Assembly (NCBI GenBank): GCA_003599275.1
Contig: QZJG01000009.1
Location: 1-49,317 of the forward strand
Reading direction: 5' to 3'
DNA: 49,317 bases
Origin: Nitrospiraceae bacterium
GTDB lineage: Bacteria; Nitrospirota; Thermodesulfovibrionia; UBA6902
Below the pieces are notes generated by a model. It was not told the origin of the DNA, ran no database searches, and worked only from the letters and a program-made list of their open reading frames with translations. Below, one piece after another: positions 21,259-46,550 of the stretch; position 1 is the stretch's first letter; every line of letters starts with the position of its first letter. The translations under genes were made by a program, and so were the position numbers.

Positions 21259-21274
21259 TGCATAAGTAGTGCCA
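21259..21274 (-). promoter_or_regulatory. Sigma-54 promoter A
   Basis: On the minus strand TGGCACTACTTATGCA has GG and GC at the required spacing of the TGGCAC-N5-TTGCA consensus; the only deviation in the -12 box is ATGCA. It precedes the 27-aa membrane protein. Confidence 0.85.
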
Positions 21275-21374
21275 ATACCTCTGTTGAAAGAACGATGCTC
21301 TCTAATACTTTGAAATCATTGGAACTTCAACGAATGCTGCGATGGGGGAATGATACTGTAAAAGGCGACGCCTT

Positions 21375-21405
21375 CTGATATATCAGGACTCTCCTGATAT
21401 ATCAG
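21375..21405. promoter_or_regulatory. Enhancer palindrome A of the sigma-54 regulon
   Basis: The arms CTGATATATCAGGA and TCCTGATATATCAG are a perfect 14-bp inverted repeat around CTC. The centre is 116 bp from the first base of promoter A. The near-identical sites at 31372, 36972 and 46520 share the spacing, which marks it as an activator binding site rather than a terminator. Confidence 0.85.
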
Positions 21406-21527
21406 TTATTTTTTTGTTTCCGGACGACGCGGGCAGAAGAATTGATACCGTGCAAGTGATAGGTTTGCGGCACGCAGTATGAGATGCACCTCCCCCCGTT
21501 AACAAAGTCACATGTATACGATTAACC

Positions 21528-22169
21528 TTAACCTCCAAGGGTGACATCCTGCTCATTGTACCAATGCAATGCTTTATAGAAATGCTCGGGGTTAAAATCC
21601 GGCCAATAGTTATCCAACACATAGAAATCCGCATAAATAGATTGAACGGGGAGGAAGCCGCTTAAACGTCTTCTGCCACCCCACCGTATAATCAGATCTA
21701 TTTTGGAAACATCAAAAGATTTAATATGACTCGTGATATTTTTCTTAGTTGAGTCAGCTGATTTCAAATTGTTTAAGTCCCACTCCCAGCCGTAATTAAC
21801 CAAAAAATTGACTTTAATTCCTCCTCTGCCAAAGATCTGCCTCGTCGTATATTTATATAATTCTTTTGGAAACATGGGAGATTCGAAATCGCCAATAACC
21901 AACAATTCTGCTTCTTCTTTAGATAAGGTATTTACCGCACTTATGCAGGCGTTAGTGAAGGCTTTTCTTTGTTCTGTCGGTCTTTTGGTATTATCAGTAG
22001 TAAAGCCGTAATACGTTAATTCCTTAATTCCTGCCTCTTTGCATAATTTAAAAAGTATCAGGCCCGGACTTATGCCACATTCATAACCTTTTTCTTTTGT
22101 CATTTTATTGGCTTCCGCCCATCTTCTGTTTCCATCAGGAATTATTCCAATATGTTTCGGTACTCTCAT
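21528..22169 (-). CDS. Divergent cis-prenyltransferase (undecaprenyl diphosphate synthase family)
   Basis: 213 aa, shorter than the usual 240-250. It condenses isopentenyl diphosphate into cis-polyprenyl diphosphates by homology. The start PKHIGIIPDGNRRWA keeps the metal-binding Asp, but the substrate segment is unusual: the canonical RTSGExRxSNFL reads RWGGRRRLSGFL, and the GHxxG region reads KGYECGISPG. The later Glu in YAEL is Asp (YADF). The ATG at 22169 follows GAGGT by 7 bases; the GTG at 22178 overlaps that site. It is probably a second, specialised enzyme rather than the housekeeping UppS. Confidence 0.75.
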   Translation of the reverse strand: MRVPKHIGIIPDGNRRWAEANKMTKEKGYECGISPGLILFKLCKEAGIKELTYYGFTTDNTKRPTEQRKAFTNACISAVNTLSKEEAELLVIGDFESPMFPKELYKYTTRQIFGRGGIKVNFLVNYGWEWDLNNLKSADSTKKNITSHIKSFDVSKIDLIIRWGGRRRLSGFLPVQSIYADFYVLDNYWPDFNPEHFYKALHWYNEQDVTLGG

Positions 22170-22422
22170 CTCTGTCACCTCACGTATATTTTATCAAATA
22201 ATAAAATTTAATCTAATACTTTTTTTTCAGACAGAACTGCTGTTGAGAACACCAGAGACACTGAGTAAGCCCCGTCAACGACCGCCGGCTATTGCCGTAT
22301 GCTGATGGTTGACATCTTTTTATATGGCTTTTAGGAGCATGTTTGTCATCCCACTGTTTTTGTTAATAAATTAAAGGGAGGGAAAAGATGCCCTGACAAA
22401 CCTCCTCGGGCCGCTTTCCTGG

Positions 22423-22874
22423 TTACTTCAAAGTCTTTTTGATTTTTTGCTTTTCCTGGTCAAACTTTTTCATGATGTTTTGAATCTCGTCGTGGTCCAA
22501 TGCCTTTTCCGCGCTCTTGAATACCTTGCTCTCCTCATCCTTGATATGGTGCTCCACGAGCTCCTTGAATACGCTCATCTTGGCTCCCCATTTCTCACCC
22601 TTTTGCATCTTCTCCAGCTCTTTTAAAACCACCTCGGCTACATGATGCTCCTCCATCGCCTCCATGGTATCCTCGCGAGCCTCTTTCTTTGCCATCAGGG
22701 GTTGATAGAAGGTTTTCTCCTCTGCCTTCATATGAGGCACCAGCTCTTCTCTGAGCTTTTGGAACAATTCTTCACGTTTCTTTAATGGACTCTCTTTGGA
22801 CTCTTTAAGCTCACCGAGAATTCCTTCACCTGCTGATGGTCTTGTTTGAGTTTCTGAAAAAATTCATTTTGCAT
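22423..22874 (-). pseudogene. Hemerythrin-domain protein, frameshifted copy
   Basis: The reading starts well (AAGGAGGAGAAA, then MQNEFFQKLKQDHQQVKE) but shifts after 17 codons: AAGGAATTC here corresponds to AAGGGAATTC in the intact paralogue at 26791-27246. One G is missing. After correction the rest (22423-22790) continues as LGELKESKESPLKKREELFQ and carries the haemerythrin histidines PHMKAEEKTFY, EEHHVAEVV and VEHHIKDEES. The ORF from the internal ATG at 22767 lacks the first His helix. Either a young pseudogene or a homopolymer error. Confidence 0.8.
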
Positions 22875-22929
22875 TTTCTCCTCCTTTTATGCCTGTGTTC
22901 CTGCGCCACTGAAACTTTCCCGGGACTGC

Positions 22930-23329
22930 TTAATCAAAACGGTCCGAGGCCATCCCGCGCTCTGCCAGGGCCATCGAGAGAGATCGGGTGAAGGAAGCCC
23001 GGCCTCCCAATATCTCCCCGAATGAGCAGGCAATCCTGTCCTTCGGCTTCCACCAAGCCGCGCGTGGTCTGCGCGTCTTCAGTTTCTTCCAGATAGACGA
23101 TAGCAACATCGGCGCCTTCCTTGGCAAAGCCGATCGCTACCGCACGGCCGATGCCGCTGTCTCCACCGGTAATGAGAGCAGTTTTTCCTTCGAGTTTGCC
23201 TGCGGCTTTATATCTTCTCATTTCCGCTTCAGGCACCGGGCGCATCAATGATTCCCGTCCCGGCTGACGCTTCTGCTGTTGCGCCGGTTGCTTTGATTTT
23301 GAGCCCCCTTTTTCTGTCCTGCGAGCCAT
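22930..23329 (-). pseudogene. Short-chain dehydrogenase fragment with internal deletion
   Basis: The 5' part is a normal SDR: SD GGAGGTCAGG, a basic tail, then GKTALITGGDSGIGRAVAIG (the NAD(P)-binding TGxxxGIG) and ADVAIVYL. The frame then runs into unrelated sequence at RGDIG. In another frame the following bases encode FTRSLSMALAERG, a segment found about 80 residues later in intact SDRs, after the catalytic YxxxK. The Ser-Tyr-Lys region is lost, so the enzyme cannot work. Confidence 0.75.
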
Positions 23330-23452
23330 CCTGACCTCCTCTTCTCACAAGTTATGTTTTTATTGCCGAGAGTAAAACACTCTCTGGTCGTAAATGCTAC
23401 GATCAGATTTTTCTCTTGCGCGCTGGCGGAGGAATGCCCATGTCATTCTGTG

Positions 23453-24373
23453 CTATTCGGCGCCTGCGCCGTGTTGTGCCCTTTTCGAACCATATACGTG
23501 CGAGTAGACCCAAGTAAACTCGGCGCCAAGCAGGAAGATTTGGGCGGCAAAATAAACCCACACCAAAAGGACGACCAGCGAAGCTGCGACGCCGAAGCCG
23601 GATGCAATGCCGGCTTTGCCCAGATAAAGGCCGATAAGGATTTTGCCGACTTCGAACAAGAGCGAGGTTGCTGCCGCGCCGACCCACACATCCCGCCAGG
23701 CGATTTTAGCCCGCGGCATAAGTTTGTAGATCATCGTAAAAAATAAAGTCGTAACAGCGAAAGAGATGCTGAAATCGAGCGCATGAAGAAAAGCTTCCCA
23801 GCCTTCAAGAAATCCGCTCCACCATTTGCCCAATGCAGCGATAGCGGCGCTGACTACCAGCGAAACCAGCAGAAGAAATCCCATGCCGAGCACGAGGCCG
23901 AAAGAAATCAGCCGCTTGCGCAGCAGTTTCCATATGCCGCTCTCTTTCACTGGGATAGGAACGCGCCAGATGCGATCAAGATCGCTTTGCAATTCCGCGA
24001 ACACCGTCGTTGCCCCAATGATAAGCATAATGCTGCTTACCACCATCGCAACTATGTCCCCAGCGGGCTCTTTGGCGCTTTTCAGCAGGTCTTGTACTGC
24101 GATTGCACCTTCCCACCCAATGAGGCCTTGTATCTGAGCGACAATTTCTCCCCGGGCTGCTTCCCGGCCAAAAACAAGACCGGACACCGCGATCACGATT
24201 ATGAGCAGAGGGGCAATTGAGAACAGTGTGTAATATGCAAGCGCTGCGCCCATGCTCGGTGCGTAATCAGCCACCCACGACTCTACGGATTTCCTCATCA
24301 GGTCCCAGATACTTCTGGAGTGAAACAAAAGCGGGGACAAACTGATTTTCTCTTGTCTGTTACATGCTTTCAT
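23453..24373 (-). CDS. YihY/BrkB family inner-membrane protein
   Basis: 306 aa. After a 30-residue cytoplasmic tail come six membrane segments. The family motif is visible in MGAALAYYTLFSIAPLLIIV (about 42-61), with LIIGATTVFAELQSDLDRIW and the last helices VLLVWVYFAAQIFLLGAEFT. YihY/BrkB proteins were once called ribonuclease BN; the real function is unknown. It lies between the SDR relic and the catalase gene in the stress island. No clear ribosome site was seen. Confidence 0.88.
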   Translation of the reverse strand: MKACNRQEKISLSPLLFHSRSIWDLMRKSVESWVADYAPSMGAALAYYTLFSIAPLLIIVIAVSGLVFGREAARGEIVAQIQGLIGWEGAIAVQDLLKSAKEPAGDIVAMVVSSIMLIIGATTVFAELQSDLDRIWRVPIPVKESGIWKLLRKRLISFGLVLGMGFLLLVSLVVSAAIAALGKWWSGFLEGWEAFLHALDFSISFAVTTLFFTMIYKLMPRAKIAWRDVWVGAAATSLLFEVGKILIGLYLGKAGIASGFGVAASLVVLLVWVYFAAQIFLLGAEFTWVYSHVYGSKRAQHGAGAE

Positions 24374-24433
24374 AATATTGACTTTTCATCTCTTAATTGA
24401 GTCTGACATATCCGCCCTGTTTGTTCTTTCCTC

Positions 24434-26551
24434 TCATGCCAGCGTTCGCACGGACTTTTCCCGGTCCCACTGGCGTTTTTTTGCTGCGGCAATAAATGCG
24501 TTTTTGTCGAGGGCATCCAGTACACCCGCATCTTTTCCGATGTTCGCTGTCTTCAACAGCTCCTCGCCGCCTTTATCAACAGCGATTGCCTTGAGATGAC
24601 CAAAGGCATCGCGTACGAAATCGATCGCCGCGCTTTCCATCGATAATGTCTTTGCACCTTCGTCGGAGAGAATGACGGCGACTGCGTCGAACAGCACAGA
24701 AGGCGTTCCAGCCAGTTGTCCGTCAGCCGCCAGTGTCGAACCATCGGCAAGTATAGCGCCGCCCACTTTGGGAGCTACGATCTTCACGGTAGCACCCGCT
24801 TGTGTCGCGGCCGTTTTAATTTTCTTGATAACAGCGCCGTCAGAGCCATCGGCGATAAGAATGCCGATCGCGCGCCCCATGAGCGTGTCTTTCATCTTAC
24901 CGATGATTTGCAATGCCGGCGAAGGATCCAGTTCCTGTACTGGCGCTGCGGCCGTCGGCGCATAAGGCATCTTGTCGAGCGCAAGACCCTCGGCGACTCG
25001 TTTGGCGAGGTCTTCCTCGATATGTCGCAGGTGACCGACCATCGCCTCACGCACGTGCACATGTTCGACCTTCGAAAGCTCAAATACCAAGGCCGAGGCG
25101 ATGTGCGCCTGCTCATACGAGGTTTGGCTGAGATAGAACTGCCGCGCCTGACTGTAGTGGTCGGCGAAGCTCTCGGCACGGATGCGACCTTTATTGCCGG
25201 TTTCAGTTATTGCAGCGCTATGAAAGCCCTTAGCCGGTGTTTCGCGTGGCGAGTTTTCAGACAGGGAGTTGGGCTCATACGCCACACGGCCCGTCGGCTG
25301 CGCCATCTGCATGTGTCCGTCGCGTTGAAGGTTGCCAAACGGGCACTTGGGCGCGTTAATCGGTATCTGGTGAAAATTGGGTGAACCCAGGCGCGAAAGC
25401 TGCGTGTCGAGATAGGAAAATAAACGGCCTTGCAACAATGGATCATTCGAGAAATCGATGCCAGGCACAATGTTGGCGGGACAATACGCAACCTGTTCGG
25501 TTTCAGCGAAAAAATTGTTTGGCCAGCGATCCAGCACCATGCGGCCGATCACTTTCAAGGGCACCAGTTCTTCCGGAATCAGCTTGGTCGCATCCAGGTG
25601 ATCAAACGGAAGTCTGTCAGCTTCCTTCTGGGTAAAAAGCTGGACTGCGAATTCCCACTCGGGGAAATTGCCGGCTTTGATGGCCTCGAACATATCACGG
25701 CGGTGGTAGTCCGGATCCGCGCCGCAAATCTTGACGGTCTCATCCCAGATGGTGGACTGCAAGCCCAGTTTGGGACGCCAGTGGAATTTGACGAAGGTTG
25801 ATTCTCCGGCAGCGTTGATCAGCCGGAAACTATGCACTCCAAAGCCTTCAATCATCCGGAGCGAACGCGGTATCGTGCGATCAGACATGATCCACATCAC
25901 CATATGCATGGATTCAGGTGTGAGCGAAATGAAATCCCAGAATGTGTCGTGCGCGGTAGCCGATTGCGGAAAGCCGCGATCAGGTTCCATTTTTACAGAG
26001 TGGATGAGGTCAGGAAACTTTATGGCGTCCTGGATAAAGAAAACCGGGATGTTGTTGCCGACCAGGTCCCAATTGCCCTCCTTGGTGTAAAACTTGACGG
26101 CAAATCCTCGTACGTCACGCGGAGTATCTACCGAACCCGCGCCGCCCGCAACGGTCGATAGACGGGTAAACACAGGTGTCATCTCGCCGACTTGGGTGAG
26201 TATCCTGGCGGTGGTATATTGTTTCAACGAGGCGGTCAGCTCGAAAAACCCATGTACGCCCGTCGCCCGCGCGTGAACGATACGCTCGGGAATGCGCTCG
26301 TGATCGAAATGCGTGATTTTTTCACGGAGGATGAAATCCTCAAGAAGCGTAGGGCCGTGCGGATTGGCGCTGAGCGAGTTTTGATTGTCGGAAAGCGCGA
26401 CGCCCTGGTTCGTGGTTAGCGCGGGATGCTCTCCACCAGCGATCTGGTGCATCTCGCCGCCTGCTGCCTGCTGTGAATCTGCGTTGTGAACAGGGCCTTT
26501 TTCCTGTCTGCGTTTTCCAGAATTGCTCGTTGTTTTTTTTTTGTTCATCAT
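24434..26551 (-). CDS. katE: Large-subunit catalase (HPII/KatE type)
   Basis: 705 aa. It degrades hydrogen peroxide in the cytoplasm. The N-terminal extension is followed by the catalase barrel with catalytic His in [11 protein letters not shown], Asn in [11 protein letters not shown] and the haem-ligand Tyr in [14 protein letters not shown]. The C-terminal 150 residues form the flavodoxin or class I amidotransferase-like domain of large catalases ([14 protein letters not shown]). Its length is right for clade 2. Neighbouring haemerythrins, relics of SOD and SDR, and a chloroperoxidase-like hydrolase give an oxidative-stress setting. The codon composition looks more GC-rich than its neighbours, compatible with transfer. 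Confidence 0.96.
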
Positions 26552-26590
26552 CGATCTCCTTAGTAAGTAACGCCAGCCTGCTGGCTATTT

Positions 26591-26719
26591 TCAACTGCTG
26601 TCAATTTCGACGGGCCGCTTCTCCTCCAGGATCATTCCGGTCCGGTGAAGCCACCGGGCCAAATCCTTGATCTTTCCGGGGAGGGCGTTGTCCCTTTGTA
26701 ACAGTTCGGTGCAGGTCAT
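26591..26719 (-). CDS. Small hypothetical ORF, possibly a fragment
   Basis: 42 aa from the ATG at 26719 (MTCTELLQRDNALPGKIKDL ...), but the frame is open upstream to about 26788 without a start, and the peptide KLVGEGAAKWRLTQVRAE reads like coding sequence. This looks like the 3' end of a lost gene between the catalase and haemerythrin genes. The family is not recognised. Confidence 0.35.
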   Translation of the reverse strand: MTCTELLQRDNALPGKIKDLARWLHRTGMILEEKRPVEIDSS

Positions 26720-26790
26720 TTCGGCCCGCACCTGAGTTAGTCGCCATTTCGCCGCGCCTTCTCCGACAAGCTTCTTCTCCTGATTCCTGA

Positions 26791-27246
26791 TTATTTCAAA
26801 TTATTTTTGATTTTCTCCTTTTCCTGCTCAAACTGTTTCATAATGTTTTGCATCTCGTCGTGGCCCAACGCCTCTTCTGCACTCTCGAATATCGTGCTCT
26901 CCTCTTCTTCAATATGATGCTCCACGAGCTCCTTGAACACGCTCAGCTTGGCCCCCCATTGCTCCTCACCCTTCTGCATCTTCTGCAGCTCTTTAAAAAC
27001 TACCTCGGCTACATGATGCTCCTCCAACGCTTCCATAGCATCCTCGCGAGCCTCTTTCTTCGCCAGCAAGGGCTGATAGAAGGTTTTTTCCTCGGCCTTC
27101 ATGTGCGGCACCAGCTCTTCTGTGAGCTTTTGGAACAACGTTTCACGCTTCTTCGAGGCATTCTGTTTAGTCTCTTTAAGCTGTTCGAGAATTCCCTTCA
27201 CGCCCTGATGGTCTTTTTTAAGTATCTCAAAAAATTCGTTATGCAT
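26791..27246 (-). CDS. Hemerythrin-domain protein
   Basis: 151 aa. Four-helix di-iron protein for oxygen or nitric-oxide binding or iron handling. Ligand candidates are the His in KKDHQGV (residue about 13), PHMKAEEKTFYQ (about 46), EEHHVAEVV and VEHHIEEEES. A long charged C-terminal helix follows. I chose the ATG at 27246 because AAAGGAGAAGAAA lies directly before it; the longer frame to 27309 starts inside the upstream small gene. Paralogue of the frameshifted copy at 22423; the two bracket the SDR relic, YihY and katE. Confidence 0.88.
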   Translation of the reverse strand: MHNEFFEILKKDHQGVKGILEQLKETKQNASKKRETLFQKLTEELVPHMKAEEKTFYQPLLAKKEAREDAMEALEEHHVAEVVFKELQKMQKGEEQWGAKLSVFKELVEHHIEEEESTIFESAEEALGHDEMQNIMKQFEQEKEKIKNNLK

Positions 27247-27295
27247 TTTCTTCTCCTTTTTTGTGAGTTTAAAGGTTCGACACTGCGTGGGTAGC

Positions 27296-28378: not shown

Positions 28379-28408
28379 GACTTTTTCTCCTTTTTTATTT
28401 ACATGTCT

Positions 28409-30941: not shown

Positions 30942-31163
30942 TTATCTCTTGGTTGAATCAGTCTTCACGTAGCGGTCCATGAATTCCTTATAGTCCTGCT
31001 CCGCTTTGTCCCTGGCATACCCATATCGTTGTTGCAAAAGTCCCAGGAGTTTTTCTTCGTTTCCTTCGACAGTGGTGAGGTCGTCATCCGTCAGTTTGCC
31101 CCACTTCGTTTTGACCTCTCCTTTGATTTCCTTCCACTTTCCTTTCAGTATTTCAGCATTCAT
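30942..31163 (-). CDS. CsbD family stress protein
   Basis: 73 aa. It has the canonical layout MNAEILKGKWKEIKGEVKTK, WGKLTDDDLTTVEGNEEKLL and RYGYARDKAEQDYKEF, as in E. coli YjbJ. Such proteins are abundant in stationary phase or under osmotic stress. GAAAGGAGGAAAC lies before the ATG. A sigma-54 promoter with enhancer palindrome lies 94-240 bases upstream, so this gene is a predicted member of the sigma-54 regulon. Confidence 0.92.
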   Translation of the reverse strand: MNAEILKGKWKEIKGEVKTKWGKLTDDDLTTVEGNEEKLLGLLQQRYGYARDKAEQDYKEFMDRYVKTDSTKR

Positions 31164-31256: not shown

Positions 31257-31272
31257 AGCAGAATGTGTGCCA
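31257..31272 (-). promoter_or_regulatory. Sigma-54 promoter B (csbD)
   Basis: On the minus strand TGGCACACATTCTGCT has the GG and GC invariants at the sigma-54 spacing, with a -12 box CTGCT in place of TTGCA. It predicts a leader of about 80 bases for the csbD gene. Confidence 0.8.
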
Positions 31273-31371: not shown

Positions 31372-31402
31372 CCGATATATCAGGAGTCTCCTGACATATC
31401 AG
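31372..31402. promoter_or_regulatory. Enhancer palindrome B of the sigma-54 regulon
   Basis: The arms CCGATATATCAGGA and TCCTGACATATCAG around GTC have two mismatched pairs. The centre is 115 bp from the first base of promoter B. Confidence 0.8.
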
Positions 31403-33718: not shown

Positions 33719-34540
33719 TCACGTCTTGAAGAATTCGAGCAGATCGGCGTTGATCTGGTCTTTATTGATAGAACACATGCCGTGCGACAAGCCCGGATAG
33801 ATTTTTAACGTGGCCCCTTTGACGATCTTGGATGAGAGCATGGCCGAGGCCCCGATCGGCACTATCTGGTCGTCGTCGCCATGCATGATGAGCGTCGGGA
33901 TGTCGATCTTCCTGAGATCTTCCGTGAAGTCCGTCTCGGAAAATGCCTTGATACAATCAATGACGCCTTTGAAACCGGCGAGCATCCCTTGCAGCCAGAA
34001 GGAGTCCCGCAGGCCTTGCGAAACCTTGGCGCCGGGCCTGTTTGCTCCGTAGAATGGCGTGGTGAGGTCTTTGAAGAACTGCGAACGGTCGGCGAGCACT
34101 CCGGCGCGGATTTTGTCGAAGGCATCAATCGGCAACCCGCCGGGATTGGCGGCCGTCTTCAGCATCAGCGGCGTCACTGAGCCGATCAGCACGGCCTTGG
34201 CCACACGTTTGGTGCCATGGCGGCCGATATAGCGGGCGACTTCACCGCCTCCTGTAGAGTGGCCGATATGGATCGCGTCCCTAAGGTCGAGCTTTTCCAC
34301 AAGTGCCGCGAGGTCGTCTGCGTAGGTGTCCATTTCGTTGCCGTTCCAGGGCTGGCCTGATCGGCCATGGCCGCGGCGGTCGTGGGCAATGCAGCGGTAT
34401 CCACTGGCGCCCAGAAATACCATCTGGTCTTCCCATGCGTCCGCGCTCAGCGGCCAGCCATGACTAAAGACAACGGGCTGTCCGCTGCCCCAGTCCTTGT
34501 AATATATCTGCGTACCGTCTTTCGTTGTAATCGTGCTCAT
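33719..34540 (-). CDS. Alpha/beta hydrolase, non-haem chloroperoxidase-like
   Basis: 273 aa. It has the layout of bacterial cofactor-free haloperoxidases or arylesterases: oxyanion segment [16 protein letters not shown], nucleophile Ser in GHSTGGGE (about 96), Asp in HGDDDQIVP (about 227) and His in GLSHGM (about 256). No signal peptide. A truncated copy of its 5' end with the same upstream sequence sits at 37078-37185. A PBP relic abuts the upstream region. Confidence 0.92.
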
Positions 34541-34571: not shown

Positions 34572-35168
34572 TTAACCACTTATGTCCGTCCAACGATAAA
34601 GCTTGCATCTGTTCAGGCTGCCATCAGCCAAGGTTCTCTGCCGCAAAGTCCCAATCGTCGAGCCTACGAAAAGCGCATCCCTGAACTCGTTTGTCGTACC
34701 TGTCTTTCCCATCACTGCGATCGGAAAATCTCCGGAGTCAAGCGCATGAGCAGTACCGCTGGGGATTCGCACGACACCACGCAGGCCCTCCTGAATGAGA
34801 TAAAGAGAGCCGTCGAAGAAATCGACCGGCAACCGCATACCCTCTTTATCAACCGCCAACTCGCCCGAATCGCGGATAATTTTTCTGATTACATACGGCC
34901 GGGTCAGTATGCCCGAGGCCATAGCGCGGTACGCGTTGGCCAGCTCCAGCAAATTCACTTCAGAGGCGCCCAACGCAGTCGAGACATATGGCTGCAGCGG
35001 CGTGTGGATCCCCAGCCTCCGGGACGTAAGCAGCACGCTGTCAATCCCGATTTGTTCTGTAACCCAAATCGAAACGGCATTTCTGGATTCCGCAAGCGCT
35101 TCCCGGAGTGTGATAACGCCCTTGAATTGCCCATCGTAGTTTGAGATCCATTTCGTACTTTGTTCCAC
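34572..35168 (-). pseudogene. PBP1A transpeptidase fragment
   Basis: The peptide (ISNYDGQFKGVITLREALAE, SRNAVSIWVTEQIGI, GASEVNLLELANAYRAMASG, AVMGKTGTTNEFRDALFVGS) is the middle and end of a class A penicillin-binding transpeptidase, with the SxN motif in SRNA and the KTG motif in KTGTT. The glycosyltransferase domain, the active-site SxxK and the C-terminus are missing, so it cannot be catalytic. The frame remains open to about 35,195. Confidence 0.75.
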
Positions 35169-35367: not shown

Positions 35368-36693
35368 TTAAATCGACTTCAGGTACTCCACAAGGTCGCT
35401 CTTTTCCTGGTCGCTCAGTCCCAGCACAAAAAAACTGTTGTAATGATCCACGACATCCATCAGGCCGGCGAAACGGCCGTCATGGTAGAAGCCGCCTTTC
35501 TGATGTGACCAGAGTCCCTTGAGCGGCGTTGTCCGGTACATCTCGTCGGGAGACCTCAGCGCCTGAAAATCGTCTATGCCGATTTCGGCAGGACTGTGCA
35601 TGTTCCATCCCGGTTCGGTAAAGAGAGGCGGCACATGGCACCGTGCACAGTCTGCTTTATTTTTGAAGATGATTTCTCCGCGCACAGCGGCGTCTTTGTC
35701 AAAACTGCCTGCAGGCGCAATAGGCGCCCCAATAGCCAGTTGATAAAAATGGAGCGCGGCAAGTTTCGCGGTAATCATATCGGGCGTAGAACGCATGTTC
35801 CAGTCGTTATTCTCAACTGCTAAAGGATATTTTACCGGATCGTTCATGCGAGGATCGTAGAACGTTCCTTTGCCGTGCATCTGTGTGTTTGCGACATATG
35901 CATTCCAGTGGGTAACCGATCCCCATCCACCATAGGTATGCAGATTCACACCGGCAAGACCAAAGGCCGCAGGCAGGAGAGTGGCCGCTGATTTACCGTC
36001 CGGCCGGAAGGCTTTGCCGTCTTCCAGGAGTTCGGCGTCGTATTTACCCGGGCCCCAGCTCGCAAAAACATTTTTCACCGTCGCCACGTCAGTATGCAAC
36101 CGCTGTGCAATAGGGTCAAGGTTGGGAGCGAGCGATACAATAGCGCCCACATTGAGATCGCGGTTTGCCCAGCCGTCCAGGCGATGACCGATTCCGGGGA
36201 TGAATGCGTCATCCACCGTGGAATGGCAGAAAGCGCAGGTGATACCCATTGACACAAGGAAGCCCTTATTGTCAAAGATTCCCTTTACTCCTACGACTGA
36301 ATTCAATTTAAGCAAGGCGAGTGTGGTTGCAGGGTCATCGAGGTCGACTTTGCCCGCTTTCAAGCTTGCGACCAGCTTTTTGGGCAGGGCGTCCATATCG
36401 ACTTTCAAGCCCACTGCCAACGCAGTATTCGGGCTGACACCTTCCCCGACTCCTCCCAGGTTGCTGCCCGCAATTGCCTGATGCAGATTGAGTGTATCAC
36501 CCCAGAACGCTTCGTCTCCGAATGTATCGAAACGAAAGGTCTGCATTCCCTGTTCTATCATCAGCAATGCATTGTCCTTCACAGAATTTCCCTTACCCTT
36601 GGCCTTTCCTTCGCGGGACCCCGCGAGTGAATAAATCGACGCAGTTGCAAACACGACTACAAAAAACAATAACACTAATGATATCCTTTTCAT
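35368..36693 (-). CDS. Dihaem cytochrome c (CCP/MauG-like)
   Basis: 441 aa, with signal peptide (1-25). Two haem c sites are CAFCH (about 151) and CARCH (about 347). The C-terminal segment GGFYHDGRFAGLMDVVDHYN is the pattern of bacterial dihaem cytochrome c peroxidases. A peroxidase or electron-transfer role in the periplasm is therefore likely. AAAGGAGACGAAA precedes the ATG. A sigma-54 promoter lies 163 bases upstream, with a 21-codon ORF between them. Confidence 0.85.
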   Translation of the reverse strand: MKRISLVLLFFVVVFATASIYSLAGSREGKAKGKGNSVKDNALLMIEQGMQTFRFDTFGDEAFWGDTLNLHQAIAGSNLGGVGEGVSPNTALAVGLKVDMDALPKKLVASLKAGKVDLDDPATTLALLKLNSVVGVKGIFDNKGFLVSMGITCAFCHSTVDDAFIPGIGHRLDGWANRDLNVGAIVSLAPNLDPIAQRLHTDVATVKNVFASWGPGKYDAELLEDGKAFRPDGKSAATLLPAAFGLAGVNLHTYGGWGSVTHWNAYVANTQMHGKGTFYDPRMNDPVKYPLAVENNDWNMRSTPDMITAKLAALHFYQLAIGAPIAPAGSFDKDAAVRGEIIFKNKADCARCHVPPLFTEPGWNMHSPAEIGIDDFQALRSPDEMYRTTPLKGLWSHQKGGFYHDGRFAGLMDVVDHYNSFFVLGLSDQEKSDLVEYLKSI

Positions 36694-36855: not shown

Positions 36856-36871
36856 AGCATAAGTTGTGCCA
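36856..36871 (-). promoter_or_regulatory. Sigma-54 promoter C (dihaem cytochrome)
   Basis: On the minus strand TGGCACAACTTATGCT carries an exact -24 box and GC at the -12 position with correct spacing. Confidence 0.85.
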
Positions 36872-36971: not shown

Positions 36972-37002
36972 CTGATATATCAGGAGTCTCCTGATATATC
37001 AG
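36972..37002. promoter_or_regulatory. Enhancer palindrome C of the sigma-54 regulon
   Basis: The arms CTGATATATCAGGA and TCCTGATATATCAG are perfect around GTC. The centre is 116 bp from the first base of promoter C. Confidence 0.85.
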
Positions 37003-37077
37003 TCATTGTTCTTGTTTCTCTTGATGCCCGGTCTTTGTATCCGATGCTGACCAGTCATAGAGGGTCTGAATATTTCA

Positions 37078-40678: not shown

Positions 40679-40740
40679 TAATCCTTCTCCTTGTAAGCTT
40701 CGCTATAGAACTGGCGAGTTCACAATAACCTCCTCATGTT

Positions 40741-40926: not shown

Positions 40927-40996
40927 ACCTCCTCATCTTTCCTGATCAGACCTCGCAGAAAGAGAAGTTGTCTGGAACAGTTATCAGGCTGAGACA

Positions 40997-42130
40997 TCAG
41001 AATCCCAGGGACACTCCCAGTCCATATGACTCAACCTTGTTAATGTAAAACTGGCCGCGCGGATCATACCCCTTGTACCACTGGGCCATGAGCAGCAGAC
41101 GACGGTGCCACAGATAGGACTGACCGAACTCAAGGCCGGCCTTGACGCTGGTATCTACGGCCCACTCATGCTCATCGAAGCTCTTCATGTCAACCCCGAC
41201 AACCGGCCTGCCGTTCCACAAAAGCGGCCTGCTGCCGTAATACTCGACCCCCCAGTGGGCGCTCATAGGTTTCAGCTCTGAGGGTTCCTTTTGAAGCAGG
41301 TACTCACCGCCACCGTACACTCGCCATCCGCGCCATTCACGGGAATAGATGAAATCAACGGCTTCATAGCTGAGGTTGACCCGTTCCGGGGGATTGACAC
41401 TCTGGAGAAACTCGTCCCCAAGGTGGGAGCTTTGGTGATAAATGCGTAAACGGAGTGAATTGTCGCCGCGCCGGTAGGTGGCGGGAATGCCGATGATGTA
41501 ATCCGCGTTGATGAGGTCGGAGGAAGGGGCGTCCAGGTTGAACTGGGCGAACAGGCCGCCTTCCACGTTAAGCTGCAGGCCGTCCCCCTCACGGTTGCCG
41601 AAGAACCTGTACAAGCCGAATGTCTCTCCGAAGCCGATTGACGCCATGGCGTACTGCACCCCCGGTGATTTAAAGCTGTTGATGCTGACAAAGAACTGCA
41701 ACTGCTTCGGGTCGGCGAGGAGCGGCCGGAACAGGTTGCCCGAGGGAAATGCTTCTCCTTCGCCGGTTACACCCAGAAGCCTGCCTACAGCTCCCGGCTT
41801 GCCGGGGTCTGAAGGCTTCACTATAATCCTCATCACATGCAGTCCGTCAATAGTGCGCAGATGCGTGTCAGCCTCCTCCCGTCGTACCGGGTCATCTTTA
41901 AACAGGGTAATCACGGCAGACCCACGAAAGACCTTCAGACGATAGCTGTCTCTCTCCCAGTGCAGTTCCCGCTCAAGGATGGAGGTAATGTAACCAGTCA
42001 GAAATTCATCACTGGTCCTGTCCACAGCCATCGCCGGGGAAGCCGGGAAAAGGAGCATGAGCAATAGAAAGGCGGCGCACAGGCCGCCGGTAACATTGAA
42101 ACAGGCGTGGATACGCATCAGCATGGTCAT
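40997..42130 (-). CDS. DUF1207 outer-membrane protein with N-terminal BON-like domain
   Basis: 377 aa. The signal peptide ends at about residue 35 (SPAMA). Residues 40-105 look like a BON domain (YITSILERELHWERDSYRLK, DGLHVMRIIVKP). The rest is a DUF1207 beta-barrel with the usual FRPLLADPKQLQF, GETFGLYRF, AQFNLDAPSSDLINADYIIG and HQSSHLGDEF, ending in an aromatic residue (SLGF) as outer-membrane proteins do. Function unknown; metal- or stress-linked operons are common. Confidence 0.88.
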   Translation of the reverse strand: MTMLMRIHACFNVTGGLCAAFLLLMLLFPASPAMAVDRTSDEFLTGYITSILERELHWERDSYRLKVFRGSAVITLFKDDPVRREEADTHLRTIDGLHVMRIIVKPSDPGKPGAVGRLLGVTGEGEAFPSGNLFRPLLADPKQLQFFVSINSFKSPGVQYAMASIGFGETFGLYRFFGNREGDGLQLNVEGGLFAQFNLDAPSSDLINADYIIGIPATYRRGDNSLRLRIYHQSSHLGDEFLQSVNPPERVNLSYEAVDFIYSREWRGWRVYGGGEYLLQKEPSELKPMSAHWGVEYYGSRPLLWNGRPVVGVDMKSFDEHEWAVDTSVKAGLEFGQSYLWHRRLLLMAQWYKGYDPRGQFYINKVESYGLGVSLGF

Positions 42131-42141
42131 CTTGATTCCGA

Positions 42142-42363
42142 TCAGCCCTTTTTGTTTCCCATGACCAGCAGCACTATCCCGCCCACGAGCGCGATGCCAC
42201 CCGCGATCGGCGGCAGCGGTAGTGTTTTTGTCTTCTCAGCAGTCACCTGAAGAGGACCGAGATCAACGACTTTCTCTCTGGTCGTGTAGGTGATGCCCTG
42301 ATACGCAAAGGCCGCGACACCTATGACGATGAGTATAATGCCTAACAGTGTATTAGTTTTCAT
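42142..42363 (-). CDS. DUF3185-like two-helix membrane protein
   Basis: 73 aa: helix 1 (TLLGIILIVIGVAAFAYQGI), a periplasmic loop YTTREKVVDLGPLQVTAEKT that is characteristic of the family, helix 2 and a Lys tail. The ATG at 42363 follows AGCAGGAGC. Probably co-transcribed with the DUF1207 gene 11 bases downstream. Confidence 0.8.
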   Translation of the reverse strand: MKTNTLLGIILIVIGVAAFAYQGITYTTREKVVDLGPLQVTAEKTKTLPLPPIAGGIALVGGIVLLVMGNKKG

Positions 42364-42411
42364 TTTGCTCCTGCTTTCTGTATTCAACCTGGTTGGGTTG
42401 ATAACTTTTCT

Positions 42412-42564
42412 TTATCCAAGAGGTTTTCGCCCCTGAATGATGTTGATCACCACCACGATAACGGCAATTACCAGCAAAATATGAATGAACCCACCCATCG
42501 TGTAACTGCTCACCAATCCAAGCAGCCATAGAATTATCAGTATCACTGCAATTGTCCACAACAT
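42412..42564 (-). CDS. lmo0937 family small membrane protein
   Basis: 50 aa: MLWTIAVILIILWLLGLVSS, YTMGGFIHILLVIAVIVVVI and NIIQGRKPLG, the family pattern almost residue for residue. Two helices are linked by YTMGG. GAAAGGAGGACCAT is the ribosome site. Function unknown. Confidence 0.85.
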   Translation of the reverse strand: MLWTIAVILIILWLLGLVSSYTMGGFIHILLVIAVIVVVINIIQGRKPLG

Positions 42565-42596
42565 ATGGTCCTCCTTTCAGTTTGTTTCAGGTTTAC

Positions 42597-42628
42597 TGCC
42601 GGCTTGTGCGAGGGTGCACAAGCCGGCA
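42597..42628. terminator. Strong hairpin between small membrane protein and BON gene
   Basis: TGCCGGCTTGTGC and GCACAAGCCGGCA form a perfect 13-bp stem around GAGGGT. It follows the stop of the three-BON gene by 25 bases on the minus strand. No U-run follows, so it is a terminator or an mRNA stabiliser. Confidence 0.6.
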
Positions 42629-42652
42629 ATGGTCCGGAGTCTATTTTGACTC

Positions 42653-43411
42653 CTATTTGGTCATGTGATTCTTTACGCTTTTCACACCCTTTACGTCTTC
42701 TACGAGTTTGGTGACCAGGTCCTTTTCAGCTGCATTCCCGGCCTTGCCGCTCAACGTGACCACGCCATTGTTCGTCTCAACTTTGGTGTTGACTGCACTG
42801 GTCGAGCGGTGGAACAGCAACAACATCTTGACCTGGGCGGTGATGGACGCGTCATCAATATTTTCACCTACCGTCTCGTGGGTCTTTTTCAAAGTCTTTG
42901 ACACAGTCATCTCATTTTTGACGTCTTTGACCCCATCTACATCCTTGGCGTATTCAGTTGTCAGGTCCTTTTGTGCCTGATTATCAGCTTCACCCTTCAG
43001 TGTCACGATTCCGTCTTTGGTGGTAACCTCCGTCAAGGCGCTTACGCTCCTATGGAACAGGAGAGTTGTTTTCAATTTTGTACTGATCCACGCATCCGAC
43101 TTTTCAGCAGGGTGTTCACCTTTGACTTCCAGCCTGTTGTCCACGCTTTTGACACCGGGGAGACTCGCAACGGTCTCCTGTGCCAATGATTTGTGGGATT
43201 CTTCGGAGACAGTCCCTGTCAGGGCGACTGCGCCATCCTTAGACTGGATTTTAATATCATCACCCTTAAGGTAGGTCTTGAACACATACGACTTATGGGC
43301 AGCTGATTCGATGCGGCTATCCATCTTGGAAGCGTATACGGGCACGCTGATTACCAACAGAATGACTGAAGCCATCATCAGCACTACAGAACACATTGTT
43401 TTCAGTTTCAT
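42653..43411 (-). CDS. Periplasmic protein with three BON domains
   Basis: 252 aa from the ATG at 43411 (AAAGGAGAGATTACA upstream). The signal peptide (1-29) is followed by BON domains at about 31-97, 104-173 and 184-252. Each has the GxVxLxG strand: DGAVALTGTV, DGIVTLKGEA, NGVVTLSGKA. The second and third domains share LLFHRSxSAxxT almost identically, which suggests a recent internal duplication. It is similar to OsmY in layout and probably stabilises the envelope under stress. Confidence 0.9.
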   Translation of the reverse strand: MKLKTMCSVVLMMASVILLVISVPVYASKMDSRIESAAHKSYVFKTYLKGDDIKIQSKDGAVALTGTVSEESHKSLAQETVASLPGVKSVDNRLEVKGEHPAEKSDAWISTKLKTTLLFHRSVSALTEVTTKDGIVTLKGEADNQAQKDLTTEYAKDVDGVKDVKNEMTVSKTLKKTHETVGENIDDASITAQVKMLLLFHRSTSAVNTKVETNNGVVTLSGKAGNAAEKDLVTKLVEDVKGVKSVKNHMTK

Positions 43412-43457
43412 TGTAATCTCTCCTTTATGTTGTTTATGTTGTTGCGTTTGTTCCGGC

Positions 43458-43979
43458 TTATTCATCCTTCATGCCGCGTTTATGCTCATGCTTCATTTCC
43501 ATCTCTTCCATCATCGGCCCGTCCTCAAACATCTCTCTAAACTTCTTCCGCTGCTCAGGTGTCAGCTTAGTTTTGATATCTTCCATGCACTTTATATGAG
43601 AAAGATGCATTTCGGTCCTCATCATCTCCATCTGTTTCACCTTTGCTTCAACTGCCTTCATGTCCACTGGGTCCTTGCTGAGAAGGTCCCTGAGATCGAT
43701 GTGGACAATGCGCATATCTGCGGACTTTTTGATCGTCTCTTTCATCATTCTGCTCTTGATCTCGCCTATTAAAGTTTTTTGCTGTTCATCAAGATCAAGG
43801 CCCATAAGATGTCGCGACATGTGCTGTTCAGCCTCCATCATCTTCCCGCCCATGACGCATTCACCCATCATTCCGGGTCCCATACCACGACCGCCCATCC
43901 CGTAACCGCCCATTTGTCCATAGGCAAGGGCCGCCAACGCAACTATTGAAACTGCTGCTATAATTGATAATTTCTTCAT
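43458..43979 (-). CDS. Spy/CpxP-like periplasmic Met-rich protein
   Basis: 173 aa. The signal peptide (1-20) is followed by a GM-rich segment (GGYGMGGRGMGPGMMGE) and a helical domain with the LTxxQ-type motif KTKLTPEQRKKFREMFED near 150. It resembles metal-resistance members of the Spy/CpxP/ZraP group, chaperones of the periplasm. The Met/His content fits copper binding near copB. GAAGGAGATTTTAA is the ribosome site. Confidence 0.78.
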   Translation of the reverse strand: MKKLSIIAAVSIVALAALAYGQMGGYGMGGRGMGPGMMGECVMGGKMMEAEQHMSRHLMGLDLDEQQKTLIGEIKSRMMKETIKKSADMRIVHIDLRDLLSKDPVDMKAVEAKVKQMEMMRTEMHLSHIKCMEDIKTKLTPEQRKKFREMFEDGPMMEEMEMKHEHKRGMKDE

Positions 43980-43992
43980 TTAAAATCTCCTT

Positions 43993-44328
43993 CTACTTTT
44001 TCTCTTCCACCTTCAAGTTGCTCTGAACGGATTTTACGCCCCTGATTTGCCTGATCTTTGCTACGATCCGATCCTCGGACGTCTTGTCATTTATGAAACC
44101 CACGAGAACAACATTCCCGTCTGTAGAGGAAACATCGATTTTCAGAAACTTGGCGTCCTGGTCTTTGACTATTATCGCATTAGATTCCGTAACAATCTTC
44201 GCGTCATCGATAGTTTCGCCTGCCGTCTTGCCCGTCATAGATGCGCAGCCAGAAAACAGGGCCAATCCAAAAACCATTACTACTGTTAACAGAATAAACT
44301 TTTGGCTTAAACTCCTACTGTTTTTCAT
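43993..44328 (-). CDS. BON-domain lipoprotein
   Basis: 111 aa. The lipoprotein signal ends with LFSGC (Cys about 28), followed by a BON domain (about 38-108): IVTESNAIIVKDQDAKFLKI, DGNVVLVGFINDK, IRGVKSVQSNL. The ATG at 44328 has AAGGAGGAGTGAG; upstream residues of the longer frame are not conserved. Confidence 0.88.
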   Translation of the reverse strand: MKNSRSLSQKFILLTVVMVFGLALFSGCASMTGKTAGETIDDAKIVTESNAIIVKDQDAKFLKIDVSSTDGNVVLVGFINDKTSEDRIVAKIRQIRGVKSVQSNLKVEEKK

Positions 44329-44351
44329 CTCACTCCTCCTTTTGTTATATG

Positions 44352-44411
44352 TGCAATCATACGATTGCAGCGTTAACATCGGTAAGCAGGGGCGTATTGC
44401 GATACGCCTCT
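44352..44411. other. Two adjacent hairpins between OmpA and BON lipoprotein genes
   Basis: TGCAATC-ATAC-GATTGCA (44352-44369) and AGGGGCGTAT-TGCG-ATACGCCTCT (44388-44411, one wobble pair) follow the OmpA gene on the minus strand. No U-run follows either stem. They may attenuate read-through or stabilise the ompA transcript. Confidence 0.5.
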
Positions 44412-44422
44412 GCCTCGCGCTG

Positions 44423-45415
44423 CTATTTCACGATGATCTCAAAAAGTACCCTCATGTTGGCCTTTGCCGCTTTTGAGTAAAGGTCTTTCGGCGCTGCCTC
44501 ATGCACAGCAGGATTAGTTTCACCATATCCGATTTTGGTAAGCCTGTCAGGTGTAACGACCCCTTCTTTTATCAGGTAGTCTTTGACGGCATTGGCCCTT
44601 CTTTCGCTCAACTTTTGGTTGTAGTCTTCAGTGCCGGAAGCAGAGGTGTACCCGGCAATACGGACGTCGGCTTTAGGGTTTTCTTTCAGGACCTGGATAT
44701 TCCTTTTAAGTATCACCTGGGCTTCTTTTGTAAGTGTCGACTTATCGAAATCGAAATGCACGTCCTCAAGTGCAAAGATAATTACTTTCTCTTCAAACGC
44801 CGGTTCAGCCGCAAGGACAATTATCTTTTCCTCAACCTTTGGTTCAGACACAAGGATAATTACTTTTTCCTCAGCCTTAGGCTCAGATTTCCTCTCGGGC
44901 TTTATCTCAGGTTTGGCAGGCTCCGCATATTTCGGTGTCTTGCCTCCAAATGCAAAAACCAGCCCTGCTGTAGTTGCTATGTTGTTGTATTTCTCCTGAA
45001 TGTCCCTTATATCGACTCTGATGGCTATATTATCTGTAAGGAAATACTTAAACCCGACACCGATCTCACCCAGGATGTGGCCGTATGAGTCATCGTCAGG
45101 TCTCATGCGGGCATGCCCGACGCCTGCAAAGATAAATGGATTGAATGCTTTTTCCGGAATCAGATGATACAGCACATCTGCATGGAAAAAGCTTGCCCGA
45201 TTCCCGGCATAATCAAAGGCACCTTCAAGGCCCAAATTCTTTGTAAAATTGTATCCGGCCCGCAGACCAATGCCGGCACTGTCCCTTTCATGCGAAAAAT
45301 AGTACCCGACAAAGGGTGAAATTTCGATGCTTCCCTCCTTAATTTCGGATACCGAAATTTGAGGGAAAGATAACATAATAACTGCTGTAAGAACTGCTAA
45401 CAAAATCTTTTTCAT
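44423..45415 (-). CDS. OmpA family outer-membrane protein
   Basis: 330 aa. The signal peptide (1-23) is followed by an eight-stranded barrel (about 25-160; SPFVGYYFSHERDSAGIGLR, GEIGVGFKYFL). A linker holds three repeats of about 17 residues built on PKxEEKVIILVSEP, with a peptidoglycan-binding OmpA C-terminal domain behind it (FDFDKSTLTKEAQVIL, GYTSASGTEDYNQKLSERRA). It anchors the outer membrane to the wall. TTAGGAGGTTTAG is the ribosome site. Confidence 0.93.
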   Translation of the reverse strand: MKKILLAVLTAVIMLSFPQISVSEIKEGSIEISPFVGYYFSHERDSAGIGLRAGYNFTKNLGLEGAFDYAGNRASFFHADVLYHLIPEKAFNPFIFAGVGHARMRPDDDSYGHILGEIGVGFKYFLTDNIAIRVDIRDIQEKYNNIATTAGLVFAFGGKTPKYAEPAKPEIKPERKSEPKAEEKVIILVSEPKVEEKIIVLAAEPAFEEKVIIFALEDVHFDFDKSTLTKEAQVILKRNIQVLKENPKADVRIAGYTSASGTEDYNQKLSERRANAVKDYLIKEGVVTPDRLTKIGYGETNPAVHEAAPKDLYSKAAKANMRVLFEIIVK

Positions 45416-45489
45416 CTAAACCTCCTAAGTTTAAGTTTATGTTTGTGTTCCCTGTCCATTGAAATAAGAAGTATGGAAATTCCTGCCCT

Positions 45490-45696
45490 TCACCTCCCGC
45501 CATGCATTTTTCCAACATGCATCCCTGACAGGGGGCCTAAGACACCGAACACATTTAATAGCCATAGAATCACGACAATAACGACTACGACATTCAGAAT
45601 TTTCTTTATGGTGGCTTGCATAGGTATATAGCTATTAATCAACCATAGAATCACACCGACAACAACCAAAGTAATCACTAATTGAATCAACGGCAT
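45490..45696 (-). CDS. Thivi_2564 family small membrane protein
   Basis: 68 aa: two hydrophobic helices MPLIQLVITLVVVGVILWLI and ILNVVVVIVVILWLLNVFG, joined by NSYIPMQATIKK, match the Thivi_2564 pattern. A His/Met-containing tail (GMHVGKMHGGR) is added. AAAAGGAGGTAACCAT is the ribosome site. Confidence 0.85.
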   Translation of the reverse strand: MPLIQLVITLVVVGVILWLINSYIPMQATIKKILNVVVVIVVILWLLNVFGVLGPLSGMHVGKMHGGR

Positions 45697-45727
45697 ATGG
45701 TTACCTCCTTTTGTTTAAATCGCCCTC

Positions 45728-46066
45728 TCATTTCGAAAGGTCTGTCTTGAGTAAATCCTCTATGAGTTCCATTCCCGACGTGTGTGACACAGTGTTGAAC
45801 CGCAATTCAGGTTGCTCGCTCAGGAGATCCATGAGCGCGAGTATCCGCCGATGATTGTCTGTGCGGATGTGGCTCTCAAGATCCTTTTGTGTCTTCCATT
45901 CCTCCACCAGGATAAAGGTATTTCTGTCTTCTACGTCTTCATAGAGACAATAACTCAGGCAGCCCCTTTCGACCCGTACGGGTTCGAGCATACCCCGCAT
46001 CGTTTCTAAAAGATCACTCCGCCTTTCAGGCCGGGCAATCATTCTTAATGTCGCAAGTATCATCAT
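45728..46066 (-). CDS. Antibiotic biosynthesis monooxygenase (ABM) domain protein
   Basis: 112 aa. A single ABM ferredoxin-like domain: LATLRMIARPERRSDLLETM, VERGCLSYCLYEDVEDRNTF and LVEEWKTQKDLESHIRTDNH. Members act as small oxygenases or as dimeric binders of quinone-like compounds; the substrate is unknown. No strong ribosome site. Confidence 0.85.
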   Translation of the reverse strand: MMILATLRMIARPERRSDLLETMRGMLEPVRVERGCLSYCLYEDVEDRNTFILVEEWKTQKDLESHIRTDNHRRILALMDLLSEQPELRFNTVSHTSGMELIEDLLKTDLSK

Positions 46067-46133
46067 ACCCCCATGCTTTTACGATTCAGACATCAGCTCC
46101 CGTTCTATCCTCCACTTAATGGAGTTCTTCATG

Positions 46134-46316
46134 CTAGTTATGTTTTCCGCTGTCGTGGTCACCATGCCCTCCAAGATCATGGCCACCGGAATCTCCTCGG
46201 CTTGGGACACCGGGTAATTCGTCACCCGGTACAACCCATCCGTGACCCGGTATAAAACAGCCGTAACACGAGATAAGCAGGCCAATGACTAAAATCAATT
46301 CGAGAACTCTCTTCAT
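46134..46316 (-). CDS. Small His/Gly-rich lipoprotein
   Basis: 60 aa. The signal MKRVLELILVIGLLISC carries a lipobox LISC (Cys 17); the short mature part ends with GGHDLGGHGDHDSGKHN, which might bind metal. AAAGGAGAAAAT precedes the ATG at 46316. It is the first gene after sigma-54 module D, with a predicted leader of about 75 bases. An overlapping frame (46079-46285) is less convincing. Confidence 0.65.
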   Translation of the reverse strand: MKRVLELILVIGLLISCYGCFIPGHGWVVPGDELPGVPSRGDSGGHDLGGHGDHDSGKHN

Positions 46317-46402
46317 ATTTTCTCCTTTAAATGCCAATACGTTTATTGATGCACCTATAACATCAAAAGCAATATTCTCGAGTGGTTGCTATTGTATCCA
46401 AG

Positions 46403-46418
46403 AGCAGAATCTATGCCA
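46403..46418 (-). promoter_or_regulatory. Sigma-54 promoter D
   Basis: On the minus strand TGGCATAGATTCTGCT has GG and GC at the sigma-54 spacing (one change, T for C, in the -24 box). The gene behind it is the small lipoprotein at 46134. Confidence 0.78.
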
Positions 46419-46519
46419 GAGCTGATGTTGAGAGGCGTGGAGTCTCTATCATGTTGGAAATAATGATGTTTCAGAGAAGACCGCGATGGGGGAATAATAT
46501 TGTGAATAGATGCAGACTC

Positions 46520-46550
46520 CTGATATATCAGTAGCCTGCTGACATGTCAG
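46520..46550. promoter_or_regulatory. Enhancer palindrome D, overlapping the activator's stop codon
   Basis: The arms CTGATATATCAGTA and TGCTGACATGTCAG around GCC have three mismatched pairs. The centre is 117 bp from the first base of promoter D. The TGA stop of the sigma-54 activator (46547-46549) lies inside the right arm. Confidence 0.8.

Follow-up and report, generated by a model that had tools for sequence, protein, structure and literature searches.

Four copies of a composite sigma-54 module in a Nitrospiraceae genome and their likely activator

Introduction

Contig QZJG01000009.1 of assembly GCA_003599275.1, from a Nitrospiraceae bacterium, is treated here over a stretch of 49,317 nucleotides, called the window. 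On its minus strand, four palindromes stand upstream of -24/-12 elements of the sigma-54 type, and one of them lies at the end of a gene for a sigma-54 activator (46547-48178). Are the four sites copies of one control unit, what drives it, and how did it come to stand before different genes? A first-pass annotation had proposed a local stress regulon run by this activator. The four sites are very likely copies of one composite sigma-54 module that the 46547-48178 activator would run, and that was partly spread by copying.

Four modules of fixed geometry

Each module comprises a 31-bp operator, a spacer of about 100 bp and a -24/-12 element:

21375..21405, minus strand: operator 1, a perfect double palindrome
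21259..21274, minus strand: -24/-12 element of module 1, TGGCACTACTTATGCA, 116 bp from the operator 1 centre
31372..31402, minus strand: operator 2, one mismatch to the double palindrome
31257..31272, minus strand: -24/-12 element of module 2, TGGCACACATTCTGCT, 115 bp from the operator 2 centre
36972..37002, minus strand: operator 3, a perfect double palindrome
36856..36871, minus strand: -24/-12 element of module 3, TGGCACAACTTATGCT, 116 bp from the operator 3 centre
46520..46550, minus strand: operator 4, CTGACATGTCAG-N7-CTGATATATCAG, which contains the TGA stop of the activator
46403..46418, minus strand: -24/-12 element of module 4, TGGCATAGATTCTGCT, 117 bp from the operator 4 centre

The distances from the centre of the 31-bp operator to the first promoter base (116, 115, 116 and 117 bp for operators 1 to 4) are those given by the first-pass annotation, and the four-copy module of fixed geometry is confirmed. 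The operator had been described as a single 31-bp palindrome, CTGATATATCAGGA-N3-TCCTGATATATCAG. Three of the four window sites fit this consensus with at most 3 mismatches, a number of mismatches at which 100 shuffles gave no match; the fourth (46520-46550) departs from it, yet fits a description as two 12-bp CTGAYATRTCAG units with a centre-to-centre distance of 19 bp. This palindrome pair describes the operator best. Across the source genome (3.05 Mb in 74 contigs, 88.6% complete), the double palindrome with at most 3 mismatches is confined to the four window sites, the reversed control giving 0, and an exact single palindrome with a promoter 85-115 bases downstream occurs at three places, each of them a module.

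The exact pattern TGGCAYN6TGCW occurs four times in the window for 0.34 expected, all four being the module promoters, and none of 100 shuffles reaches four. The pattern TGGCAY-N7-TGC, initially suggested for searches, has one N in excess: it matches an unrelated site once and misses all four promoters.

Conservation of the spacing among relatives

At up to 2 mismatches, 23 of the 230 class genomes contain the operator, and none of the 230 its reversed control. In G091, among these 23, the only site is a poor one with 2 mismatches and no promoter, so promoter-bearing modules occur in 22 of the 230. The sites examined number 65, namely 64 from this search and one 3-mismatch site (G035). A promoter with at most 1 mismatch lies 113-118 bp from the operator in 60 of them, and is exact in 53; elsewhere between 40 and 400 bp, on both sides of the sites, just two exact promoters occur. 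These 60 modules, from 22 genomes of five families (f1, f8, f9, f17 and f18), have a mean spacing of 115.43 bp with a standard deviation (s.d.) of 1.24. The count leaves out L027_6210, where the contig ends, L033_11409, whose promoter is found only at 247, and the promoterless L168_5943, L038_1892 and L039_9931. From promoter to the first start codon preceded by a Shine-Dalgarno-like sequence, the distance ranges from 54 to 276 bp (s.d. 56.5; the 54 of 60 modules where a start was called).

A strict search with the exact pattern in 295 genomes of the phylum returned seven positives, all within the class, and none among the 178 genomes outside it. In a looser operator search of 120 relatives (at most 3 mismatches), the reversed control matched two genomes (G029 and G085); single 3-mismatch hits in G020, G022 and G097 were kept outside the 65-site set. 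The modules are local in this genome, as first proposed, whereas several relatives have their sites on separate contigs. As to a mobile origin, the exact operator is absent from viral contigs and module 3 is unmatched in a plasmid collection, a phage collection not having been searched.

The activator and its stop codon

The candidate regulator is encoded directly upstream of operator 4:

46547..48178, minus strand (stop included): PAS / sigma-54 AAA+ / Fis-type helix-turn-helix (HTH) activator; PF00158 237.6 bits, PF02954 37.6 bits, PF13426

Its GAFTGA loop is intact, as in all six aligned orthologues (one of which, L044, is without HTH), and the genome encodes sigma-54 (PF04552, 206.4 bits). 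The best NCBIfam match of the activator is the FhlA equivalog NF011958 (formate hydrogenlyase activator), which covers residues 182-540 including the HTH region; unlike FhlA, it has a PAS domain at its N-terminus and scores far under the family cut-off (399.9 bits against 830). Its score with the PEP-CTERM response regulator model TIGR02915 is also under the cut-off (312.3 against 502.6 bits).

Orthologues are present in 15 of the 230 class genomes, at 65-100% identity or as a fragment at 80-89%, and a sixteenth is a 74% fragment at a contig end (G199). The line was drawn at the gap below 65%, the next homologues reaching at most 61%. All 16 genomes with a detected orthologue carry modules, as against 6 of the 214 others (7 if the promoterless G091 site is counted); the hypergeometric P of 4e-20 is not a clean probability, given the relatedness of the genomes and a threshold chosen where a gap was visible. 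The proposal of a sigma-54 regulon run by this activator is well supported, if indirectly, by co-occurrence, by adjacency, by the coherence of the targets described below and by the presence of sigma-54 and integration host factor (IHF) genes.

Adjacency takes a particular form. Modules lie directly behind an activator gene in 14 of 61 cases (the 60 and L027_6210), in 13 genomes including that of the window, and in 10 of the 14, again with the window, the TGA stop of the activator is part of the first palindrome. At L021_9848 (G018), the activator stops early, without HTH, and a tail remnant is all that reaches the operator TGA; at L033_15581 and L037_10189, the stop stands a few bases ahead of the palindrome, and at L181_5700, the frame continues through it. 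Two further genes finish with CTGATA too, the remaining operator being missing: L195, truncated at its start by the contig, and L214, close to a contig end.

Two observations accompany these loci. The module behind L021_9848 is nearly identical to another module of the same genome. At L195 and L214, both near contig ends, the break in the operator comes right after CTGATA(T), about midway through the first palindrome.

The sensor differs among orthologues while AAA+ and HTH stay: it is a PAS domain, a receiver (five scanned proteins) or none detected (L203). Sensor swaps, with HTH and operator retained, seem to have connected the regulon to different inputs. To note, the window encodes a hybrid PAS histidine kinase with receiver at 15940-18081, whose PAS region shares about 40% identity with that of the activator; a similar kinase start is seen by eye behind the activator fragment L195 of G006. 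This kinase is a possible signalling partner of the activator.

The spacer and a putative IHF site

Operator and promoter have a high information content, and a T/A-rich block at a fixed place relative to the promoter has a moderate one. With the IHF consensus taken as WATCAANNNNTTR, a site with at most 1 mismatch is found in 27 of the 60 spacers, for a mean of 8.4 and a largest value of 15 in shuffles, and 24 of the 27 sites stand at offset 57-60 in one orientation. The window has one such site:

21303..21315, minus strand: IHF-like site of the module 1 spacer, TTTCAAAGTATTA, 1 mismatch to WATCAANNNNTTR

The genome encodes HU as well as candidate IHF subunits. For the alpha subunit, one of two models is passed (123.3 against a cut-off of 111; himA model 110.1 against 120.25), and the beta subunit scores 114.4, marginally under its cut-off of 115. 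Because related modules do not count as independent cases, the enrichment of IHF-like sites supports, without proving, an IHF site between operator and promoter.

Fossils of the activator gene

The DNA upstream of 49 "non-activator" modules was compared with the ends of activator genes, against a null of 20,000 random positions in the same loci. Scores of p<=0.001 are reached by 15 of the 49 over the 60 bases before the operator, by 18 over -30..-1 and by 6 over -60..-31, outside the A-rich tract. The 49 include L033_15581, L037_10189 and L181_5700, which follow an activator with its stop elsewhere; none of them is among the 15. The best fossils run in frame to the shared stop (...NTAAEVLGINPKTFELMMQRRGIQINKKKA in G177, ...FPKTLESRMQRPGIQRNKKNA in G026), and G177 has a longer remnant with an internal stop. 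By tblastn of 12 upstream regions, four tails are found at E 3e-16, 7e-8, 5e-6 and 7e-4 (single-subject values). The regulon probably grew partly by copying, because several modules carry these in-frame fossils of the activator 3' end. The window contains a candidate:

37003..37055, minus strand: activator 3'-end fossil before operator 3, in frame, ...RIQRPGIKRNKNND*; Smith-Waterman score 44, the largest of 300 shuffles being 27

Its position weight matrix p is 5e-5 over -60..-1 and 0.009 over -60..-31.

Larger copies are also seen. G026 has a segment with a second copy, 88% identical, behind an intact activator; the match starts 54 bp before the operator and reaches at least 500 bp past the operator start, where the stretch compared ends. 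In ten chosen module pairs, matches start 0-76 bp before the operator and end 146-271 bp past the operator start, the -12 element ending near 147; one match exceeds the compared stretch and two are cut by contig ends.

Other pieces of genes are present in the window. By eye, the alpha/beta hydrolase at 33719-34540 begins in a similar way to a short open reading frame (ORF) start at ~37119 (MGTITTKTGTQME*), before operator 3, which would be another gene fragment beside a module. At 34572-35168 and 22934-23329, short pieces match a penicillin-binding transpeptidase domain and a short-chain dehydrogenase, and the region looks rearranged.

Homologues with other operators

Genomes with homologues of 53-61% identity only (G027, G035, G209, G213, G216, G217, G226 and G229) have no motif at up to 2 mismatches; G035 has the 3-mismatch site, which is promoterless. 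Ten such second-tier genes were found and eight scanned without an assumed operator, L047 (not picked up by the filter) and L215 (contig edge) being left aside. In five of the eight, the best palindrome pair has a promoter with at most 1 mismatch at 115.5, 114.5, 116.5, 117.0 or 115.0 bp, with different operators such as CCGATATATCGG and CCGCCATATGTGGCGG. L048, among these five, has a second candidate at 227. The other three give 100 bp with a poor pair (L208), no promoter (L210) and no reading (L216).

Among the 80 cross-phylum homologues listed, none has a Group I module nearby. A usable activator end is available for 49 of these loci, and eight promoter distances to the best pair were obtained, from -92.5 to 210 bp: one is at 116 (L077, a Nitrospira metagenome-assembled genome, MAG), and others at 86, 104 and 126.5 have imperfect promoters. 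A 115-bp length general across phyla is therefore not shown by these eight distances. In L071, from a Desulfobacteraceae MAG, an imperfect promoter stands at 117 from a palindrome pair that is outside the stretch scanned for the other cross-phylum loci.

The HTH residues after TL can be set by eye beside the operators: TLESRM with CTGATATATCAG, TLQSKM with CCGAAATATCGG, TLRARM with GTCATATTTGAC, and TLSSRM or TLASRM with ACGAGATCTCGT. A permutation test of this association is weak (162/5000 and 409/5000 at two thresholds), with misfits that include L073 and L210; variation of the operator sequence with the HTH helix is suggestive. Other double palindromes downstream of the activator, seemingly tracking the recognition helix, are seen at the cross-phylum loci L071, L072, L074, L079, L100, L103 and L105.

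Weighing the explanations

The palindrome could instead serve the 3' end of the activator mRNA, as a transcription terminator or an RNA hairpin, and lie near a promoter only incidentally. Perfect copies indeed fold strongly as RNA (-18.9 kcal/mol, z -7.3), the palindrome overlaps the activator stop codon in ten cases, and short T runs start about 10 bases past it in many copies. None of these T runs, however, directly follows the palindrome, and a terminator would not be expected to have a promoter at one distance in 60 of 65 sites or to follow an activator gene in just 14 of 61 modules. Moreover, 9 of 60 sites retain both 12-bp palindromes yet weaken the hairpin, window operator 4 folding at -9.9 kcal/mol. 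A terminator is very improbable. That some other regulator binds the palindromes, the 46547 activator being a mere neighbour, would agree with the six module genomes in which no orthologue was detected. This is also improbable, although less so, given the modules in 16 of 16 activator genomes, the stop codon shared with the operator and the operators that seem to vary with the HTH helix.

The fixed spacing might instead reflect common descent alone, recent copies having had no time to drift. Near-identical spacers do occur within genomes (identity 1.00 in G177, 0.96 and 0.87 in G018, and 0.88 twice in G026), whereas mean identity over all spacers is 0.64, for a shuffled baseline of 0.50, with lengths still at 97-102. 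In a tree of the 60 modules that is poorly resolved (stars on 6 of its 56 inner branches, with the bootstrap still unsettled), modules of one genome generally do not group, and those of the window fall in several parts together with modules of other genomes, a weak argument against recent copying; many modules seem old and common to several genomes, and some seem to be recent copies. Activators with different operators retain 114.5-117 bp in five of the eight loci scanned. Descent alone is unlikely; it could account for part of the rigid length, and the second-tier homologues argue against its accounting for the whole.

Several results weigh against the module as a unit run by the 46547-48178 activator and spread by copying. 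The chief one, as regards a strict partnership of activator and module, is that six genomes (G126, G179, G181, G206, G210 and G211) have promoter-bearing modules and no detected orthologue; four of them (G126, G179, G181 and G211) are 97-100% complete. Many assemblies are fragmented, and missing contigs are a possible reason for absent orthologues. The modules are homologous, and descent may explain part of the constancy of their spacing. In 33 of the 60 spacers, there is no match within 1 mismatch to the IHF consensus used, and in none an exact one. The five-of-eight figure for second-tier loci is a raw count, to which L212 and L048 contribute weakly scoring pairs. In the window, the operator 3 fossil is short and not significant by tblastn (E 0.66), and operators 1 and 2 have no convincing fossil in the upstream comparison.

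The activator-driven module nevertheless accounts best for the sites, and the following mechanism is proposed. The activator, forming hexamers and triggered by some signal through its PAS sensor, would bind the two 12-bp palindromes 19 bp apart. IHF would probably bend the intervening DNA and so bring the AAA+ ring to the sigma-54 polymerase, which sits some 115 bp further downstream on the -24/-12 element; the spacing may be functional, and a set of envelope and stress genes would be switched on. The module has its home behind the activator gene, where it starts at the stop codon of that gene, and the regulon would have been enlarged, at least partly, by copying the 3' end of this gene, with operator, bend site and promoter, before new genes. 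Evenly balanced is the further idea that the stop-codon operator makes the regulator the seed of its own regulon, and that the assembly, functional only as a rigid complex of about 115 bp, keeps its length while the operator (with the HTH) and the sensor change.

Target genes

Behind the window modules, the following genes are encoded:

21130..21213, minus strand: 27-aa membrane microprotein, first ORF after module 1, resembling the first ORFs behind eight other modules of relatives
30942..31163, minus strand: CsbD-family protein, behind module 2; PF05532 68.8 bits
30678..30830, minus strand: DUF3309 protein; PF11752 83.5 bits
36744..36809, minus strand: 21-codon ORF, by eye an apparent truncated relative of a 56-aa protein
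35368..36693, minus strand: two-CXXCH cytochrome-like protein with weak MauG / di-haem peroxidase matches
46134..46316, minus strand: 60-aa putative lipoprotein, first ORF after module 4; lipobox-like N-terminus, no Pfam family
45728..46066, minus strand: ABM-domain protein, a recurrent target; PF03992 54.5 bits

The first-pass assignments hold for the 27-aa ORF, for CsbD (its Pfam cut-off is 40) and for the 21-codon ORF between promoter 3 and the cytochrome. The dihaem cytochrome has its two CXXCH motifs, but its di-haem and MauG matches are far under cut-off, and the lipobox-like N-terminus is the sole basis for the lipoprotein. The window microprotein matches no Pfam family. Nine modules, in seven genomes, have as their first ORF a membrane microprotein of 25-28 aa with a GG(G/S)GFYW motif. 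Such microproteins are seen at window positions 21130-21213 and at L029, L033, L166, L172, L175, L176 and L186. The 56-aa relative of the 21-codon ORF is the first ORF after a module of G210 (L187:2010-2180).

Relatives of 18 chosen proteins were counted over 3.5 kb downstream and upstream of the 60 modules; neighbouring modules overlap and some genes count twice. Downstream against upstream, the counts are 19/1 for ABM, 17/1 for the BON lipoprotein, 12/1 for the small CsbD and for each of two OmpA types, 11/1 for triple BON and 10/1 for the "PEVVVIPG" envelope protein. They are 5/2 for PRC, 2/1 for the larger CsbD of the window, 1/1 for the Lcl-domain protein and 0/1 for the hemerythrin of the window. 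No target relative is on the opposite strand. A putative role in the envelope and in general stress is concluded from these gene families, the one basis for the word "stress" of the initial proposal.

Relation to known systems and significance

Enhancer sites about 100-150 bp upstream of sigma-54 promoters (PMC7057263), very frequent tandem duplication of palindromes (PMC6296734) and an IHF class of enhancers (PMC4740811) are described. The present modules resemble IHF-looped sigma-54 systems by their AAA+ activator with GAFTGA, their tandem palindromes and, in 27 of 60 spacers, a putative IHF-like site between enhancer and -24/-12 element. They appear to differ by a spacing of 113-118 bp over 60 modules in 22 genomes, by an operator that often overlaps the activator stop codon, and by copies that carry apparent fossils of the activator gene. 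The regulon predicted here is an uncharacterised one built of a known kind of element, sigma-54 enhancer and promoter; no account of this operator or regulon was found in the literature searched, where one paper (PMC13050008) contains CTGATATATCAG. What appears unusual is the rigid length, the operator in the stop codon of the regulator and the fossils that would record growth by copying.

Promoter regions can be copied or horizontally transferred (regulatory rewiring), which puts regulatory DNA before new genes. The same would have happened here, with the difference that the source is readable, the tail of the regulator gene having come along. Such fossils would be a rare readable record of a bacterial regulon gaining members. 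Sigma-54 enhancers are usually held to tolerate changes of position, and 60 natural modules of near-uniform length make it possible to test directly if a single rigid machine can arise from enhancer, bend and promoter. The activator family may supply matched HTH helices and operators across phyla. Finally, the activator is proposed as a regulator for widespread and poorly understood envelope and stress genes, including those for BON, CsbD and DUF3309 proteins and microproteins.

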